A DNA stretch of 64,000 bases from Pseudovirgaria hyperparasitica (lineage: Eukaryota; Ascomycota; Dothideomycetes; Acrospermales; Acrospermaceae), in NCBI RefSeq assembly GCF_010093815.1, contig NW_022985559.1, positions 337,770-401,769 of the forward strand, in the 5' to 3' direction. The notes below the pieces were generated by a model, which was not told where the DNA came from, ran no database searches, and saw nothing but the letters and a program-made list of their open reading frames with translations. The position numbers and the translations under genes are program-made. Shown in pieces: positions 1 through 35,918 of the stretch (positions are counted from its first letter, which is position 1; the number at the start of each line of letters is the position of its first letter).

Positions 1-1398
1 TAGTCCTTGAAGTCCTTTTCTGTGGTAACTTTGAGCTGTGTGAGTAGGGAGAAGAGTGTGCCTTCATCACGCATGTCGCCAATCATGAGTGGGACTTTTG
101 CGAATTTGCCTTGTGCGGCAAGACGGTGAGGAGAGTCGGTGAGATGCTTGCCGTCGGGACGGATGGTCCATGTTGATGCGAGGGAAGAAGCGCCGAGGAA
201 GTACTCTATATAGGCGTCAGATATTGGAGTCTGCTCAGAGACATGGAAAAGTACCTTCTTCGTTTACAGCGGCGGAGATATCTGCGTGATCAGCTTTCTT
301 GAGACACGCGATTTTGTCTGCTGCGTCAGTGCAGCCGCAGTTCGCAACCATTCTATCGAAGGTTGCTTGCTGCCTCTCTGGGCCGTCAACCATGACTGGA
401 CCGCCCGAGACGGCGATGGCGGCCCGGAAAAGGTCTTGTTTGCCACCGTCCCACAGCAAGTGAGTAGAGACTGACCAACTGCCAGCGGATTCTCCAAAGA
501 TTGTGAGCTTATCAGGGTCTCTACCAAACTACACTAATGTCAGGGCACCTTCTCCTTAATGGGAAATATGGAATCATCATGCCTTCGAAATGTGTTTCTT
601 GATCCACTGCATGGCTACACGCTGGTCCTCGATGCCAAGATTCAGCAGACCAGCCTCCTCCATCTCCTTCGAAGCGCTAAATCCAAACGCATTCAGTCTG
701 TAGCTTATGGAAGCGACAATGATGGGTTGGTCTGTTTCTACTGCAGTCTGGACGAGGCCCGCAGGGCGGTAGTTTACAGCCAGACCCGGAGCCGCCAGAG
801 TTTCGCCAAGCGCTGCGTAAGGGGCACCGATTTCGAAACCACCACCATGACTAGAGAGTTGTCAGCAATATCCCTGGCGCTAGATAGCTTTGGAGCGCTG
901 GCAGGCCTTACATCCACATGATGATCGGAAGCTTAGCATCCGGACGAGTGTTTTCTGGAACTTGGATGTTGATAAGGAGGCAGTCCTCAGACTGGGGCGA
1001 GAGCGGATACAGTGCTTCTTCAATGAAGCCCACTGCAGCACCTATGCCCAGATCTCCAGTGCCATTGGCGGCGAGGATCGAGCCTGTGGACTTCTGGGTG
1101 CATGCTGGGCCAAAGTGAGTGGCGTCTTGGATGCCCTCGAGCTTCCTGGAAAAGAGCTGTGCATGCTCGAAGCGACCTGCTTCGGCATATGGCATGCCTG
1201 TGCACACGTCAATAAGATAATAGCGTGATCCTTGGTTTACTGACCTAGATATCCCCATGAATGGCTCACTGGATCAGCTATGCCCTTGAAAGTGCCATAG
1301 TCAAGGTCAATATTGGGAGGCGAGTCTCGTTTCACTGGCTTCGCAAGAGCGAGTGTTGCAAAGCACAATGGCCACAACGCGCGAATACAAGGTTTCAT
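1..1398 (-). CDS. Secreted type-B carboxylesterase, partial at left edge
   Basis: Alpha/beta-hydrolase of the carboxylesterase/cholinesterase family, which hydrolyses carboxylic esters outside the cell. The start at 1398 gives a signal peptide (MKPCIRALWPLCFATLALA) followed by a KR Kex2-like site; an ATG at 1443 is an alternative that would bury it. Exons fit at 1245-1398, 912-1197, 583-850 and 268-528, then 230 to the edge. Visible motifs are GMPYAE, EDCLLINI, the oxyanion HGGGF, NLGIEDQRVAMQWI and the nucleophile elbow FGESAGSWS (Ser codon 487-489). The acidic residue and His would lie beyond position 1. The intron at 529-582 would be GC-AG. Exons 4 and 5 join in frame only with a 37-nt intron (231-267); otherwise there is a frame break there, so the gene may be damaged. 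Family is certain; integrity is not. Confidence 0.85.
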
Positions 1399-2418
1399 TG
1401 TGGAGTGAAAGACAGGTTTAAGGAAAACGAAAGTCTTAGACAATCGATTAAGGGCTAAGGACGAGAATCCGACTATATACTACCAAGGCACTTCGTAGCT
1501 TGCGCAAGTCTTAGCTTGAGCAAACATGTATCGTTATGCCCTCGCTCTACATGTTCCTTTCAGGAGACGGATAATGATGAACAGCCGCAAGACCGGACCA
1601 ATCATCGAGTGTGATGGTTATAACACGATGCCGTCAGTTGTTATAGCGGAGAACCTAAGGCCAACGATTCATCTTGGAACTGACATAGCCAAGCATGATC
1701 GAGTAAAGGCTTATTCTTTATGCGAACTAGGCAGGGTAGTAGCAGGCTTGGACTGCGGGGCGCCGGTAATGGTACAACTATGGAGTTCACAATGATTCGG
1801 TGTCAGTAGTCATCCTTCGACCCTTGTGTGGTACTAGCTGTAGATCTTCATGCAGGTCTATGGTCGCATCATGTAATAAACAGAACAGTAAGACGGCGTG
1901 CCGGCAAGCGAACATTGGGATGAATCTCCCTATGTGGCCCCAGAAATAGGGGCATAAGCCATACTTTCCTTGACGTGAAAGAGAAGAAAATTCTGCAAAC
2001 TTTGGCGAATACAGTTGGAAGGTGGGAGAGGGAGGAACACGAAGAGTTTCACTTGACCTGAGCGCAAGAACTTCGGCAACCATGAAATCCGGGGCAGAAC
2101 AGCCCAAAATTACGGTTATTGTTCACCTCGGGCCGGACAGGGGAACCCCTAGCAGTCCCCGCATTAACCTTAAACTAAGCTGCGTGTCATTTCTGGGTTT
2201 ATCACCTGACCATGTTCGGTTTTCTGAGCATCGGCTAGGCGATCAACTGACATCCTGGTAGATGTCTTATTCCGGACTGGCTCTGTAACTTCCTGTCATC
2301 TATATTATTGGTACAAGTCATTGATACATCGTAAAATACACATTTGCTCCCCATTGTCACATCACTACCAGCATACGCCAACAAAGTATGCAACCTACTT
2401 CCATAAGACCCACCAGCT
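1399..2418. other. Intergenic, no gene seen
   Basis: Upstream of the carboxylesterase and downstream of the amidohydrolase. Short open frames here (for example 1526-1795) have no recognisable motifs or supporting splice structure. Confidence 0.6.
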
Positions 2419-3660
2419 CTATCCCATGTACTCCTCACCAGCAACCCACACGTTTCTCACGTTGTTTATAATCTTGATGTCCGCTATGGGGTCGCCCTCG
2501 ACTAAGAGCAGATCTGCCCTCAACCCAGTTTTAACCTGTCCCCTATCAGTGTACCCAAAGATTCTGGCTGGCTCCTTGGTAGCCATTCTCAGAACATCTG
2601 CATTCGACAGGCCGACTTCAGTCAACAATTCCATCTCCTCATGCAGACTACTCCCAAATGGAAACCAAAGCTCTGTGAGGGCCCCCGGTGTTAAGGTATG
2701 CACATCCGTGCCCACGAGAAGATCCGCACCAGCGTCATACAATTTCCGCACATTCGACTGAATCATTGTCCAGTTGGCATCCGGATAATAGCCAGCCTGC
2801 CAGCCTTGATAGTGCACACGCAACGTCGGGACGTTGACTACACCCATACCAAGAAGTTGCTGTACTTGGTCATCGCTGATGTTTGCGTCCGTAATAGTGT
2901 GATGGATCAAGTCTGTCCCACTTCCAAGTGCGCGTACCCAGCTATCGGATTCCGTTGCATGCGTCATTACTACGCGTCCGTACTTGTGGCCCTCGGCTAC
3001 GATTGCGGTTTGCATGTCTTGACTGAAGCCACCATTCTGACTGCGTAGTTTGAAGAGTTCTGACCCAGCAGCTATATTGTTGGACATGAAGGACGGGATC
3101 TGGGCGGTTGAGTTGATGAAATTGACAGATGGAACGCCGCCAGGTGTTGCGAGGTTACTGCTTCCAGGAGCAACAGCGGGGAGACCAGCGGTGATAAAGC
3201 TGGTGAGGCCTGGTAGGTTCCTAAGCTGCGCACAAAGCGTGAGATTTTGACAGGATGCGCCGATCGTAGTAGTCACACCAGCAGCCGTAAGATTTTTCAT
3301 TTCTTCGAGGGAGCCCGGGTGTGCGTGTGACTCGAAGAAGCCGGGGAGAAGGACATGCCCGGTGCCGTTGATATGGGTATCAGGCGTGACGCCGAGATTG
3401 GTGCCGATCAAGCCGATACTCGAACCAGAAATGAGCACAGTAGTCGGAGCGGATAGACCATGACCATTGAAATACCGAACGTTGTCTAGGGCAGTCACTT
3501 GGGGCGAGGACGTGGTGAGGTTTGTTGCTGGATCACTGCGTTTGCTGTATCTCGCGCGGTGAGCGGCTATGCCGACATCTGAGCCCGCAGCCGGATCATC
3601 GCCGCAAGCCAAGATAAGGCGGATGCTTGCTAGAAGAGTAAGACCTCTGTTGAGCTGCAT
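2419..3660 (-). CDS. Secreted amidohydrolase (imidazolonepropionase-like)
   Basis: Single-exon gene of 413 residues. The open frame continues upstream to 3726 but only from a TTG; the first ATG is at 3660 and starts a hydrophobic leader (MQLNRGLTLLASIRLILACG), so export is likely. It belongs to the metal-dependent amidohydrolase superfamily. The first metal-binding strand reads FFESHAHPG, later histidines sit in VMTHATE and DLIHHT, and the late aspartate in LLVGTDVHT. The C-terminus returns to the composite-domain signature (TGLRADLLLVEGDP). Family members cleave cyclic amides, lactams or similar C-N bonds; the substrate cannot be read from sequence. Many N-glycosylation sequons (NLT, NGT, NWT) fit secretion. 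It lies 670 bp from the divergent Zn2Cys6 gene and could share its promoter region. Confidence 0.85.
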   Translation of the reverse strand: MQLNRGLTLLASIRLILACGDDPAAGSDVGIAAHRARYSKRSDPATNLTTSSPQVTALDNVRYFNGHGLSAPTTVLISGSSIGLIGTNLGVTPDTHINGTGHVLLPGFFESHAHPGSLEEMKNLTAAGVTTTIGASCQNLTLCAQLRNLPGLTSFITAGLPAVAPGSSNLATPGGVPSVNFINSTAQIPSFMSNNIAAGSELFKLRSQNGGFSQDMQTAIVAEGHKYGRVVMTHATESDSWVRALGSGTDLIHHTITDANISDDQVQQLLGMGVVNVPTLRVHYQGWQAGYYPDANWTMIQSNVRKLYDAGADLLVGTDVHTLTPGALTELWFPFGSSLHEEMELLTEVGLSNADVLRMATKEPARIFGYTDRGQVKTGLRADLLLVEGDPIADIKIINNVRNVWVAGEEYMG

Positions 3661-29102: not shown

Positions 29103-31183
29103 ATGGAGGCCAACAATGGCCTTGCACCTCCTCCTCTTCATCTCCCAGATGGTGCCTGGACCCAGGGCCCCGTATCCCTCGCCCGTGGCCGTTCTGCAAA
29201 GGACCCCAGCGCTCAGACAGCTACCTACACCGTTCATTCTCTAGAAGAGTTCGAAACAGCTCTACGCGCATACCTTGATGACCCACCTCCCGATCCCGAA
29301 CATGCGGAGGGCCATTTTCATTTTTGGCTCGGTGCGAGCTTCCTCGTGCACCCCCCGGTGCTGTCACCCCAGGAGCGAGTAGCTCTCGAAGCTCATGCTC
29401 GTCGAGTTGAGCAGCAAGCAGCACAGCAACTCCAGGAGGAGGACCAGCAACAAGACCCAACAAACCAATCGGCATATCCTCCTACAAGCCTGGACGCGCA
29501 CTATGCTGCTGCTGCTCAGGCACATCGTGCCGCACAGAGAGCAATATACGCACAGAATGCAAAGCTTGGCCCTCGACCCGATGGACGTACTATTGTAGCA
29601 AGATCAGAGGCTTGTGGTCTGCCATCGACCAAAATCTCCATGAGCATCTTAGAGGCCCTTCAACCTACGGCCGATCCCAAAGACCGTATGCGGAAGCAAA
29701 GAGCAATAGCGAAGGCCTGTATTGAAGCCATTCAGCGGGTAGATGGCTATCGGTACAGTTTCCACAACAATTGGAACAGCAGAGAGGACGACGCTTTCAG
29801 GTTTAGTTATTACTGTAACGATTCCCTGTTGAACAAAGATCGGGCCGCCAATGGCAAAGGTCAGAAAGTTGGTCAGTAGATCCACCTTACATGGTGAGAC
29901 TATGCTAACGAATAAGCCTTAACAGGTAAGAGGGCCACAAAGCCCGTGTATGACTGCCGAGGTGTGCTTGCTGTCAAATTCTCGTCCGTGAAGCAGAGCT
30001 TGGAAGTCCACTATAAGCACATTCCGAAGCATAAGACGTATGAAGAGCGTGCCCCGCCACCCCGACGAGATTCCAAAAGAAGGAAGCGATTGGAGGCAGA
30101 CGATCCAGACGCGTAAGCAGAAAGAACATTTGGGTTGTCTGGCACAGCTGACCTCATGAGCAGTGTACCTCAAAAGAAGCCGCGTCCGCCGCCTAAGGAG
30201 AAAGATCTCAGCGCCCTGCCGAAGAAGAAGAAGGACAAGGCAAATAAAGAACAGCCTGCAGACTCCATTGAAAGCTCTCTTAGGGCACAAAGTCTACAAT
30301 CCTTGCTTGAGCTCATACGAGTTGACGGGCCCACCGGCAGTGGAACCAATGGTGACACTGCTCCAGCTGTTGATGCTGGGATACAAATTTTCCAGGCCAC
30401 CCAAGCGAGTCCTTCCGGTACTCCAGATACTTCGCACCCTGCCAAGAGGCGACCGAGACTTGCCTGTGATCAGTGTAGGTCGAAGCGAACAGCATGTGAT
30501 CATGCTCGACCAACTTGCAAGTCTTGCAACACTCGAAGTCTTCAATGTGTCTACAACGATATGGCAGACAAAGCCTCTCGACAGTCTCTACCTGCAACTG
30601 GACAGTTGGCTCAGGCACCCAGCAACAACATATCAACTCCAAACACAACATCAGCACCACCCGTCGTGCAGAAAGCTGCTGGCCCAACGCCATCGGATGA
30701 CTTGATTTTGCAGAAGATGAAAGCTGACTTGGAAGCTGCTCAATTGCGTATTGCTCAGTTGGAAGCCGAAAAGAACACGAGTCCAACCGTGTCGACCCGC
30801 ACCGTGACGCCGAATACTATGAATAATATCACTCCACAGCCCCGGCACCGCGAAGTACTTCATCAGCAATATCAGCAGATGCAGCAGAGTGAGTGGATAT
30901 AGATTTCAAGTATTTTGTGAGGCTAATGATCACAGATAATATGCACCCTCGCCACGACTATCCTCGCCAGCCGGTGCAGCCACAGGGGCAAGCGCAACAA
31001 GCTCCAGCCCAACCTTCACCGCAGCAACATCAACATCAAACGCACCACATGCAGGCCTCACAGCAGACGCAGTGGCCCGCACCTACATGGAACTCATACC
31101 AGTATCCGCAGACGTCGCTGCAGGCTCCGAGACAGGATCAGTGGAACAGTCGAACTAATACTGGCAACCTGTTCCGCCAATAG
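29103..31183 (+). CDS. Zn2Cys6 transcription factor with an additional N-terminal conserved domain
   Basis: Four exons (29103-29871, 29926-30112, 30164-30888, 30936-31183) encode 642 residues. The zinc cluster is central, not N-terminal: Cys420 to Cys447 with C-x2-C-x6-C-x6-C-x2-C-x6-C spacing (starts CDQCRSKRTACDH). It follows a basic Lys/Pro stretch (KKPRPPPKEK, PKKKKDK) likely to be a nuclear signal. Residues about 215-305 (YSFHNNWNSREDDAFRFSYY, CRGVLAVKFS, LEVHYKHIPKHKTYEER) look like a separate, strongly conserved DNA-binding-like domain with Cys and His residues, reminiscent of FAR1/WRKY-GCM1-type folds; that comparison is tentative. A coiled coil (LILQKMKADLEAAQLRIAQL) and a Gln/Pro-rich tail follow. 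Confidence 0.85.
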
Positions 31184-31885
31184 AGTGCATGGTAGCTGCC
31201 ACTCTCGACCCTTAATATGTAATTTTGTCAATGATGTTATGATTAGCGTACATTCTTCTGTTCCTTAGCGTCGTCTTGAGTAGTTACTGTTACGCGGACT
31301 TGTTGGAAAACTTTCGGGAATATGCGTTTGGATGGTATCATTCTACGGGTTCATGGTATTACACCATCTTATGACAGCGTTTGATTTGGCGGTACTTGTG
31401 TGGAGCTTCCTAGGCGTTTGCGGAGGCTGTCCGGACCACAGCGAGGCAACAGGTCGGAACACGATGTTGCTCACTCATTCATTCACACGGTTCTGAGTTA
31501 CGAGATCAAAAGTTCTTAAAGTCATATAATCGTCACCTATCATCTCGTTTAGTCATTCATGTAAGCTGATTTGCCCACTTCCGGACACGACCTTCGCAAG
31601 TATACGCCCCATGAAAGTGAGGATCCTGCGTGAAGCCGGAAGACGGTATGAATGTGCGTAGGTAAGGTGGAATATCTAAGCAGTGAACTCGAGGTGAGAT
31701 TGTACAAGACAAGTTCTTGGGTTGTTCATCGTCACGGTCTGGACCCGATTGGTGGCGCTGCCCACTTGTTCTTTGTTTCTTCCTCAGCTCAGCCTCACGT
31801 CCATGGACTCTACCTCGAATCATCCGCCAACTCGTCATCTTGCTCTGCGTTACGTGCGGACATAGTATGAGCGCAAGCATAAACT
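31184..31885. other. Intergenic, no gene seen
   Basis: 700 bp between two plus-strand genes; short frames only. Confidence 0.5.
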
Positions 31886-33817
31886 ATGACATCCGTCTTC
31901 GGCGTCTCGGCTGGCGACTTCATAGCTACAGGCATCTTGATCAAGAACCTCATCCAAGCCTTGCGCGTGTCCGCCGCCTCCGAGCACCTCGAGCTCTGTT
32001 CAGAGCTCGACGGACTCAAGCGCGCGCTCCACGAGATCGAACATCTGAAATGTAGTCCTGAGCAGGAGCGAGATGTGAATGCTGTGAAGGTCGCAGCGCT
32101 CCGCTGCCGGCATCCTTTGGAGGACTTCGAGAAGAAGCTCGTCAAGTATTGGAGCATTGGGACACAGCCGACGAGTACGACTGGACGGATAGTCAGGATT
32201 GGTCGGAAGGTGCAGTGGAGTGTGAGTATGCAGGACGATGTGGATAGGCTTAGGGCAGTGATTGCGGCGCATGTTGGGAGCTTGAATATGCGTCTTCTGA
32301 CGCTGGGACTGTGAGTTGCTTGTGCTAGTACTATTTTGCTACCGTGTATTGATTTGTGAAGGAATGCTATACTGTTGGAATCTAGCACTTTGGCTGATGC
32401 GTCCACGTCCTCGGATGCGCTCCAGCGGGAGATGCCTGCGATCCGCTCGGAGATTATCAACATGAGTGGAATGGTGTCAAAGAGCACCACAATGCTGTCG
32501 TCACTCAAAGACCTTGTAACTCTGTAACGGCCGTCGAGTCTGCCTGCTCAGGACTGACTGCTAACATTTGAGCAGGAATCTTGTGCCGCAACTCTCCCAC
32601 TTGACTGATTTTGCACTCAAGATATGGACGACCAATTTGGATATCCTGGCAAAACTTTCGGATGTATCTAATCAGTTGGAGATAGATCTAAAGCACACTC
32701 ATTTCCAGGCACAGTTCATATTCGAAGATGCATCGGGGAATATACTGCCTTTGCCGCCCGAGCTCGGATGGAGGGTACGTATGCCTGACTCCAGCCTCCA
32801 GACTCCAATTTTATGAACGAGACATGAATGAATGACCCTTACCATTTACCACAGGGCATGAACGCCATCGTAAAGGACCGCTACCTCACCGGCCCAGGCC
32901 ATCGCAAAATCGCCGCTGGCGAGTACGAGCTATTCCACACACGAGACCGCAACCAGCTCATCACAAGCGATACATACCCTCTCCTGCCGCCCGGATCGCG
33001 CATAACGATGTCTCTGATCATCGGCCGCTACGAAGACTGGCAGTCGCGGAATTGCTCGCGGCCGGGCTGTGCCTCGCGTAGCTTTAGCCGGACGAGTGCT
33101 GGTGGATGGACATGGTGAGCGAGCTCCACGTCCCTACATGCCGTACCGTTCTGTCAGTCCGCAGTGTTCTAAGTTTCCGCAAACAGCGATGCGTGTGCGG
33201 TCTGGTTCGACAAATCGCACACCATGATCCCCCGACCGTTCCGCGAGCTGCACCTCGACGATCTCGACGACGTGTCCGCAAGCCTCCTCCACGCGCATCA
33301 TGTTCCGGGGGGAGGCACAAAGCGCCGTGCGGCCGGGCTTGCCGAACGTCGTCTCACGGTGCGACAGATCTTCGATATGATCACCACACTGCGGGACGAC
33401 CGGAAGTGGTTTAAGAATATCTCGGTTATCGAAAGTGATCTGTCGGATATCGAGGCGTATATCAGCTCGGCGACCGTGGCCGAGCATGGACGGCCGAAGA
33501 AAGTGCCGAGAGGAGCGCGGAGCTCGAAAGTGCGGGCGCCAAAAGGGGCGATTGAGCGAGACCGGGAACTCGTTAGCAAGGCTTATGCCGTTGTGAGCGA
33601 TCTTATAGGTTATGATGTGCTTGATGAACAGATAGAGGATTATGACACGACGTTTGCTAATTTCGGCTTCGATTCTCTCCTGGCTGTCCAGCTGCCGTTG
33701 TCACTGGAAGAAGCGCTGGGGTATCGAGTCACGATAACACCATATGAGCTGATGAGCCAGGAGATGACGATGGCAAAATTCAAGACGCTAATCCTGAGTG
33801 CCAATCCGAAGGCCTGA
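31886..33817 (+). CDS. Ubiquitin-like (ULD_2-type) / zinc-ribbon protein fused to an acyl-carrier-like domain
   Basis: Five exons (31886-32310, 32362-32523, 32576-32774, 32855-33114, 33187-33817) encode 558 residues. Residues 1-140 (SAGDFIATGILIKNLIQAL, CSELDGLKRALHEIEHLK) match the helical N-terminal region seen in fungal ULD_2 proteins. Residues about 240-325 are ubiquitin-like (AQFIFEDASGNILPLPPELG ... PGSRITMSLIIG). Cys329, 334, 349 and 352 form a zinc ribbon, and the last intron splits the codon of Cys349, which supports this splice. Residues about 480-555 look like a carrier domain: YDTTFANFGFDSLLAVQL followed by LEEALGYRVTITPYELM, with Ser512 (codon 33674-33676) at the phosphopantetheine site. 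No PKS or NRPS gene is nearby. Function unknown; a separate gene starting at 33224 is the alternative. Confidence 0.8.
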
Positions 33818-34043: not shown

Positions 34044-35918
34044 TCACTCATCCAAAACCCCCATAACCCCCTCCGAATCCCGCACCAACACCGCCGTCCG
34101 ACTCAGACTCGCCCTGACCGGCTTCCGCGCACAGAAAATCTCCGTCAACTCCTCCAAAGTTCGCCTCCGCGTCTCCACAAAGAAGAAATAAATAAACACA
34201 AACTCCAGACTATCCCAGCCGATGAACAGGATATAGTACTTCCACCCGGCCCCCGTAAACGCAATCTCCGTCACAAAAGTATTGTAGAACCCGGCCAGAT
34301 TGATCACGAAATTGTTGAACCCCATCCCCTTCGCCCTGCTCTCGTAGCGCAGACATTCCACCGGGTAGAGTGCTTGCAGTGGTGTGTAGCCGGCCGAGTA
34401 CACGAATCCGAAGATGAAAATCAGGCCGATGATGGCCTTTGCCTGCGCAGGGCGCTGCACGGCAATCGTCCCGTCGTCAAGCGTAATGTACGCGCCCGTC
34501 ACGCCGTCAGTCCGCAGATTCGTCGCGTTCAGCGCCGCAATGGCAGCAAACAGCACGACAATCACAAACGTCGACACCAGCAACTGCGGCCGCCGGCCCC
34601 AGCGATCCGTAAACACGGCCCCGACCATCGCGCCGCCAAACGACACAATGTTCTGCATCCCGTTGTACAGCAGCCGGATGTTATTCCCCTCGATCCCGGC
34701 GCCGCGCAGCATGGTCGGGTAGAAGTACGAGACCGGCCCGTTGCCAGACCACTGCCCGAAGACCGCCATCGCCGCGACAAGCAGCGTCCGGTAGCGCGTC
34801 TCCCGCGAGTCGAACAGCTCCCGGTAATCCCACCAGCGCTTGTCCGCGCCCGTGACGCTGATGTCCTCGACCATCTCCTTGTACTCGAGCTGCACGATCG
34901 GACTGTCGCGACAGCCCTCGCCGTGAAACCGCGCCATCACATCCAGCGCCTCCTCATGCCGATCGTTCGCAATCAGCCAGCGCGGCGTCTCGGGGAGGAA
35001 CGGACTGCCCAGCAGCACGGCCCCGGAGAAGACAATCTGCAGCCAGATGGGCAGGCGCCAGGATGCGGTCCCGGGGAGTGTGGAGGTGGCAAAGGGGACA
35101 AAGGCGCCTGGGATGCCGCCGAGGAACCAGAATGTGTTGTAGATGCCTGTCATTGTGCCGCGGTAGCTCGGGTGGGCCATTTCGGAGACGTAGGCGGGCC
35201 CGGCGGAGGCGCAGATGGCGACGCCGAAGCCGAGGGTGAAGCGGCCGAGCATGAAGAGGGAGAGGTGGGTGCAGGTTGCCTGGATGGCGGTGCCGAGGAC
35301 GATGACGGCGGAGCCGATGAACATGCCCCATTTGCGGCCTGCGGGATTGAGTGTCAGCCAGTGAAGTGGAATGTAATGGAGTTAGGGGGACGGGGGAAGT
35401 GGTGTTATATACCTCGAAAATCCGTCGCAGGCCCAGCAGCAAACGACCCAAGCAGGTTCCCGATCGTGTATATAGCATACACAATCCCCGTCGACGGCGT
35501 GCCCTTATCAATCGGGAAATTAAAGTAAACACGGTACTGCTCATACGTGTTTATCCCAGCCATCAACGAGCCATCATAGCCATTAATGCAGCTATTCAGC
35601 GTCGCCAGCAGCAGACACGCGTACAGCTATTCTCTCACACTTTTGCGTTAGTGACTTCCCCCCAGACGTACTATGGGTTTAAGTGAGAGACATAGTTACC
35701 GAAAACATATTCCGCGTCCACGGCGAGGGCTTCTGCCGCTCCGTCGCATCCGTCAGCGCGACATTATACGAGTGCGCGACCTTTGCATCCTCCTTTTCCC
35801 GCCCTTCCTCCTCCTCCTTCTCGCCCCCTGTCGCCGAACCCCTCGAGCGCAGCGCCCGCCGGCCCCGGTACAGCCCGCTCTTTATCGCAAACTCGCGCTC
35901 CTGGGACGACAGCGACAT
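34044..35918 (-). CDS. MFS sugar transporter (lactose-permease-like, fungal)
   Basis: Three exons (35700-35918, 35413-35626, 34044-35338) encode 575 residues with 12 predicted membrane spans. Family signatures are NGYDGSLMAGINTYEQYRVYF across exon 2, TDFRGRKWGMFIGSA at the second junction, GRFTLGFGVAI, PETPRWLIAND, DRWGRRPQLL and PVECLRYESRAKGM. It should import a hexose or disaccharide by proton symport. The N-terminal 60 residues are polar with a Glu/Lys run (GGEKEEEEGREKED). The carboxyl tail is short and acidic at the end. The long opposite-strand frame at 33927-35528 is a shadow. The gene faces the 3-kb tandem-repeat region with its promoter side. Confidence 0.9.

Follow-up and report, generated by a model that had tools for sequence, protein, structure and literature searches.

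To our knowledge, carrier domains hardly ever occur apart from synthases or the close partners of these. One point of comparison for the protein described here is provided by the fungal non-reducing polyketide synthases (PKSs) with their SAT-KS-AT-PT-ACP architecture, the acyl carrier proteins (ACPs) of which have the carrier fold and the GxDSL motif in common with its C-terminal domain around Ser512. In contrast to these synthases, this protein has no KS, AT, PT or SAT on its chain and none was found nearby, and its carrier departs from the non-reducing PKS ACPs by a proline (Pro519), by insertions around helix III and by a long branch in phylogenetic trees. Another comparison is offered by CHGG_09364 from Chaetomium globosum, a fungal protein that is not a synthase but has an ACP close to its C-terminus. 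The accessible text of PMC8471558 gives it as a hypothetical protein with a standalone ACP at residues 1006-1064 of 1073 aa that was silent by RNA-seq. This likeness is one of ACP position only, and the two proteins differ in length (1073 vs 558 aa; PMC8471558). In Escherichia coli, a carrier is read by a regulator: according to the accessible text of PMC3340395, SpoT recognizes ACP through helix II with involvement of the SpoT TGS domain, which is necessary but does not set specificity. Here, the likeness would be one of function, as ACP and SpoT are two separate bacterial proteins (PMC3340395) rather than one fungal chain.

The gene in question is located on the forward strand at positions 31886..33817 of a 64,000-nucleotide stretch of genomic DNA from Pseudovirgaria hyperparasitica (hereafter the window). 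Rebuilt from the raw window, it consists of five exons (31886-32310, 32362-32523, 32576-32774, 32855-33114 and 33187-33817) encoding 558 aa plus the stop codon, with an in-frame stop directly 5′ of the start ATG, and its four introns of 51, 52, 80 and 72 bases all run from GT to AG. The predicted removal of intron 4 (33115-33186) keeps the frame and rebuilds Cys349, the codon of which spans the junction 33114/33187. If this intron were retained, translation would proceed over TGG (33113-33115) directly into a TGA stop (33116-33118). Six AGs lie inside intron 4, and only the one at 33186 leads into the full exon-5 frame, while the remaining five give stops at residues 365-447. The original prediction had proposed a single gene on the grounds of this splice, and the rebuilt model of 558 aa agrees with it, including the limits of intron 4 and the numbering of Cys349 and Ser512; splicing in the cell would be expected to follow the same pattern.

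For codon usage, a score was derived from PKS/NRPS-type frames at 20 loci of this genome, which together supply 12,950 codons. The proposed frame ranks first in exons 1, 3 and 4, the linker and the carrier region, reaching +0.22 bits per codon in the latter vs −1.00 and −0.78 for the other two forward frames. Exon 2 is approximately level with an antisense frame (0.169 vs 0.172), and at the start of exon 5 (33187-33223) the best frame is an antisense one, in a stretch that is short and not informative. Two long antisense open frames occur on the reverse strand at 31810-32547 (245 aa, opposite exons 1-2) and 33134-33700 (188 aa, opposite exon 5), perhaps as a by-product of codon usage.

The predicted protein starts with a PigL_N-like region (residues 19-131; 31940..32278, + strand) that remains sub-threshold, as exon 1 alone matches PF17111 in Pfam with 20.3 bits and E 3.8e-4 vs a cut-off of 27.2; a genome search with this profile returned three other places, and the gene at 31886-33817 was not among them. 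Further downstream follows a ubiquitin-like ULD_2 domain (residues 240-318; 32706..33022, +) that is split by intron 3 (32775-32854) and scores 36.3 bits (E 6.7e-9) with PF22893 in a Pfam scan of the whole protein, i. e. above the curated cut-off of 24.5, a trait shared with fungal ULD_2 proteins. The four cysteines in C329-x4-C334 ... C349-x2-C352 (33053..33196, +; split by intron 4) form a putative Cys4 motif that is without a family match in the Pfam scan of the protein and, judging from its cysteines, probably binds zinc. A linker (residues 361-470; 33221..33550, +) without any family match (0 families in a Pfam scan of 33224-33571) then leads to the C-terminal carrier or PP-binding domain (residues 471-558; 33551..33814, +), which was assigned by profile, shuffles, hhalign and structural model. 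In the whole-protein scan, PF00550 matches residues 491-532 with 26.5 bits (E 7.6e-6, cut-off 20.8), and on the last 88 residues alone the score is 30.0 bits (E 6.4e-7). The expected phosphopantetheine attachment site, Ser512 (33674..33676, +), is part of a GFDSL motif.

Beside ULD_2 and PP-binding, a sub-threshold CLU_N is the third and last Pfam entry of the whole-protein scan, and the matches in NCBIfam, all to long PKS/NRPS models, are low-scoring and incomplete. Among solved structures, nothing matches residues 1-359 at E up to 1. NACHT, NB-ARC, ankyrin and WD matches are likewise missing from the Pfam scan at the same limit, and neither KS/AT nor A/C domains were detected on the protein with Pfam. 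By domain test, it is a member of both PF00550 and PF22893, and by the tests made it is not a PKS, an NRPS or an NLR. The originally claimed combination of ULD_2, Cys4 motif and carrier-type domain, along with the search with PF00550 and ULD_2 profiles proposed for its verification, is thereby confirmed: both domains score above their Pfam cut-offs on one predicted protein, and the four cysteines are present.

A connection to NLR-like proteins had been suggested as well and finds no support, given that no NACHT, ankyrin or WD match is found on the protein, that PigL_N is sub-threshold and that the single further ULD_2 gene detected in this genome (L013, 128 bits) is coiled-coil-like and lacks both a Cys4 motif and a carrier. 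The accessible text of three papers on fungal NLRs (PMC12258605, PMC4986451, PMC9815663) contains 0 occurrences of “phosphopantethe” and 0 of “carrier” or “acyl carrier”. L013 (C29:2721-5972) comprises a 751-aa open stretch (frame 997-3252, reverse strand) with ULD_2 placed after a long charged Ala/Lys/Glu stretch. Its Pro/Gly-rich tail ends in CAVM, which we take to resemble a prenylation box. A paralogue of the gene at 31886-33817 was not found in genome searches with the whole protein and with its ULD-Cys part; as the family search missed this gene's own ULD_2, such genome searches under-report.

Several lines of evidence bear on the nature of the exon-5 domain. In a genome-wide carrier scan, exon 5 was recovered with E 2.5e-5 as one of 61 matches. 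An HMM constructed from the genome's carriers other than this one (60 sequences) assigns 22.5 bits to exon 5; none of 2000 exon-5 shuffles reaches half of this score with the same HMM (maximum 10.2 bits). In a leave-one-out comparison, the 60 other carriers obtain 26.0-79.9 bits and the trimmed Ser512 domain 24.8-28.0 bits, which places the latter at the low edge. Alignment of exon 5 to 20 carriers (own sequence excluded) with hhalign results in a probability of 94.6 % vs at most 6.4 % in 100 shuffles. The serine of the GFDSL motif is invariant in 21 of 21 alignment rows, and the alignment reveals insertions around helix III in the Ser512 carrier. When AlphaFold2 was supplied with an alignment of 43 bacterial modular-PKS-like ACPs (21-35 % identical to the Ser512 carrier), the last 88 residues were modelled as a four-helix carrier with a pLDDT of 86.6 and helices at 2-19, 25-28, 42-56, 64-68 and 74-84, in which Ser512 opens helix II (42-56). 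Because a PKS-carrier alignment favours a carrier fold, this model indicates compatibility rather than proof. Foldseek returned 141 matches of the model at E up to 10; of the 50 listed, 45 bear descriptions of carriers or of synthase pieces that include one. The other five (FtsHi motor complexes and respiratory complex I, two each, as well as HitB-HitD) leave the matched chain unstated. Within these 50, most query-based TM-scores are in the range 0.6-0.7, and none of the matches reaches E 0.001. An IMG/VR match (L091) of only 24 residues on a viral contig was set aside.

If exon 5 were merely carrier-like by chance, this could account for the moderate Pfam E value with only 42 residues matched in the full-length scan, for the best PDB match of residues 362-558 obtained with phmmer, a modular-PKS carrier at an E of just 0.0081, and for the single-sequence AlphaFold2 run on the same residues, which gave no usable model (pLDDT 38.7). 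Such a coincidence is, however, at odds with both sets of shuffles and with the confident carrier model given the alignment. Chance resemblance was rejected on the basis of the HMM and hhalign shuffles, and we consider it very improbable. The PKS/NRPS-like carrier module of the original prediction stands, with the Pfam cut-off passed, a score far over the shuffles and Ser512 intact in GFDSL; the underlying observation holds and exceeds what chance would give.

A peculiarity of this carrier is Pro519 (33695..33697, +), located in helix II at Ser+7. A proline-free helix II is a usual trait of carriers outside the formal PF00550 definition, and Pro519 deviates from it: prolines at Ser+1 to Ser+12 are present in 0 of 57 other carriers of the genome. 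This count covers 57 of 60 rows, as three (L067, L082, L087) fell outside the motif, and two of the 57 (L084, L089) were caught off-site; by eye, these five likewise have no helix II proline. The 43 bacterial ACPs do not count as evidence on Pro519, since they were retrieved with a DNA pattern that prescribed Arg at this position. Counted from the serine, Pro519 corresponds to Val43 of E. coli ACP, if the attachment serine of the latter is, as we assume, Ser36. The accessible text of PMC3340395 describes that the V43E exchange abolished partner interactions of E. coli ACP in the authors' assays and that this variant came from a screen for ACPs still sustaining growth; a change at position 43 is therefore not fatal. 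Pro519 in conjunction with the loss of partner interactions in V43E implies that the carrier may be decayed. By analogy, one would expect poor interactions of the Ser512 carrier with the usual synthase partners, and Pro519 fits either new private partners or decay alike.

The genomic setting of the carrier is uncommon as well. For 60 of the 61 carrier matches, a synthase-type domain (KS, A or C; five of these 60 on the basis of Pfam scans of their loci) is found no more than 7.6 kb away; the Ser512 carrier is the exception. Genome scans gave no KS or condensation match on its home contig C11 (1.55 Mb), no AMP-binding match was found near the gene or on C11 with 14 of 97 genome candidates scored, and no synthase is encoded in the scanned frames of the window, which are 20 of its 39 frames with at least 200 aa. 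Within this scope, the claim that no synthase gene lies nearby is upheld. The scanned window frames include a Zn2Cys6 regulator, a sugar transporter, an amidase and an NTF2-domain frame. The Zn2Cys6 frame (PF00172, 34.5 bits) is situated at 30117-30902 on the same strand, about 1 kb upstream of the gene, and the sugar transporter frame (PF00083, 240 bits) at 34044-35381 on the reverse strand is convergent with it.

Across the genome, a carrier is present at a distance of no more than 12 kb from 34 of 37 KS matches. The three others are in a 1664-aa frame with a PF01648 match, in a thiolase frame and in an unassigned fragment at C1:2814926. As PF01648 and KS matches occur on one and the same frame, the 1664-aa frame, located on C3, is probably a fatty-acid synthase. 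The ketoacyl-synthase fragment (C1:2814926-2815240) contains two in-frame stops (introns ignored) and lacks any carrier at a distance of up to 12 kb; its two largest neighbouring frames code for a nickel transporter and for a nucleolar protein. Condensation matches at C25:24458-38573 and 86269-87408 are interrupted by internal stops (up to nine per match, introns ignored), which suggests decayed NRPS genes. Apart from the C3 frame, PF01648 matches a transferase frame at C9:1170378 (28.0 bits vs a cut-off of 25) that is presumably of the Sfp/NpgA type.

As to its origin, the carrier may descend from the tandem ACPs of a non-reducing PKS. In a tree of 61 carriers it groups with L034, L042, L053a and L053b with a support of 90/92, which is not firm; a tree of 52 carriers, which omits eight long branches (L038, L051, L066, L075, L078, L079, L082, L087) and one truncated row (L088), recovers the same grouping with a support of 88/43, likewise not firm. 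The Ser512 carrier sits on a long branch in both trees. The four grouped carriers lie on two PKSs, both of which have a product-template (PT) domain (TIGR04532) and one of which has a SAT, and owing to the product-template domains they are regarded as non-reducing PKS ACPs. Class scores amount to 20.0 for these four ACPs vs 18.6 for the highly reducing (HR) PKS class and 15.7 for a third PKS group; a 27.1-bit score for a class “NR/other PKS” was set aside, because this class mixed types. In pairwise alignments, L066 (64) scores best, ahead of L073 (57), which was taken as an HR-PKS carrier, and of L042 and L041 (55 each), and this order speaks against a sure origin from a non-reducing PKS. With class scores so similar and a different carrier, L066, as the top pairwise match, this derivation is a lead rather than a result.

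The explanation that we favour, with a probability of roughly 0.5, is a non-synthase adaptor or regulator with a repurposed carrier that is probably still phosphopantetheinylated. Gene anatomy, domain identities, the lack of synthase domains in the scanned surroundings and the presence of a transferase gene are the observations that any explanation has to accommodate. Against a working carrier stand its low-edge score, the long branch, Pro519, the unusable single-sequence AlphaFold2 model, the dependence of the good model on PKS-like carriers as alignment, and Foldseek E values that are all above 0.001. Three of these points, i. e. the proline in the recognition helix, the low score and the branch length, would fit a real fusion in which the carrier is exapted or decaying, so that an ACP fold no longer phosphopantetheinylated acts as a helical binding module or persists as a neutral tail. 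The intact GFDSL motif and an open frame with good codon usage are harder to reconcile with this course of events, which we regard as doubtful and about half as likely as the working adaptor.

It is unlikely that the locus instead harbours two genes, with a ULD_2/Cys4 gene ending near 33115 and a separate carrier of 197 aa starting from the ATG at 33224. This ATG has a good start context (CACCATG), and intron 4 is without a match to the YTRAY branch motif; yet splicing maintains the frame and completes the second Cys pair, residues 350-361, encoded 5′ of that ATG, include Cys352, and the intron-retained product would stop in the middle of the Cys motif. Even a little less plausible is a trans-acting carrier serving a synthase elsewhere in the genome, as implied by the original prediction of a stand-alone partner. 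The grouping with non-reducing PKS ACPs, whose support is not firm, would be in line with such a role, but the 34 of 37 KS that already have a carrier within 12 kb contradict it, the exceptions being the probable fatty-acid synthase, the thiolase frame and the C1 fragment, and contig C11 is without a KS or condensation match.

For the favoured adaptor or regulator, as opposed to a biosynthetic carrier, the following course can be envisaged. The chain would run from a helical N-terminal region via ULD_2, the Cys4 knuckle and the 110-residue linker to the acyl-carrier domain. The Sfp/NpgA-type phosphopantetheinyl transferase of the genome would load Ser512, and the prosthetic arm, either free or conceivably acylated, could together with the altered helix II change the docking of the carrier. 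The ULD/Cys4 part might then pass on the state of the arm, which would control the choice of partner. A more specific version, which we put forward as speculative and improbable, has the PKS-derived carrier as the sensor half of the protein: the Ser512 arm would be acylated depending on acyl or polyketide supply, dock on the protein's own ULD and thereby switch binding by the ULD/Cys4 part. By analogy, this could represent a single-chain counterpart of the reading of ACP by SpoT, the TGS domain of which is a ubiquitin-like β-grasp.

Taken together, the combination of ULD_2 and a carrier stands out in this genome and may be new. The original prediction knew of no described protein with this combination, and in open-access text none with ULD_2 and a carrier on one chain was met; on the other hand, a non-synthase fungal protein with an ACP, CHGG_09364, is in print according to the accessible text of PMC8471558. 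The importance of the fusion hinges on its conservation in related fungi. Confined to one genome as an isolated event, it would be of little consequence. If it is conserved, in contrast, it would open a direct route to the question of whether fungi monitor their acyl or polyketide status via protein-bound phosphopantetheine.
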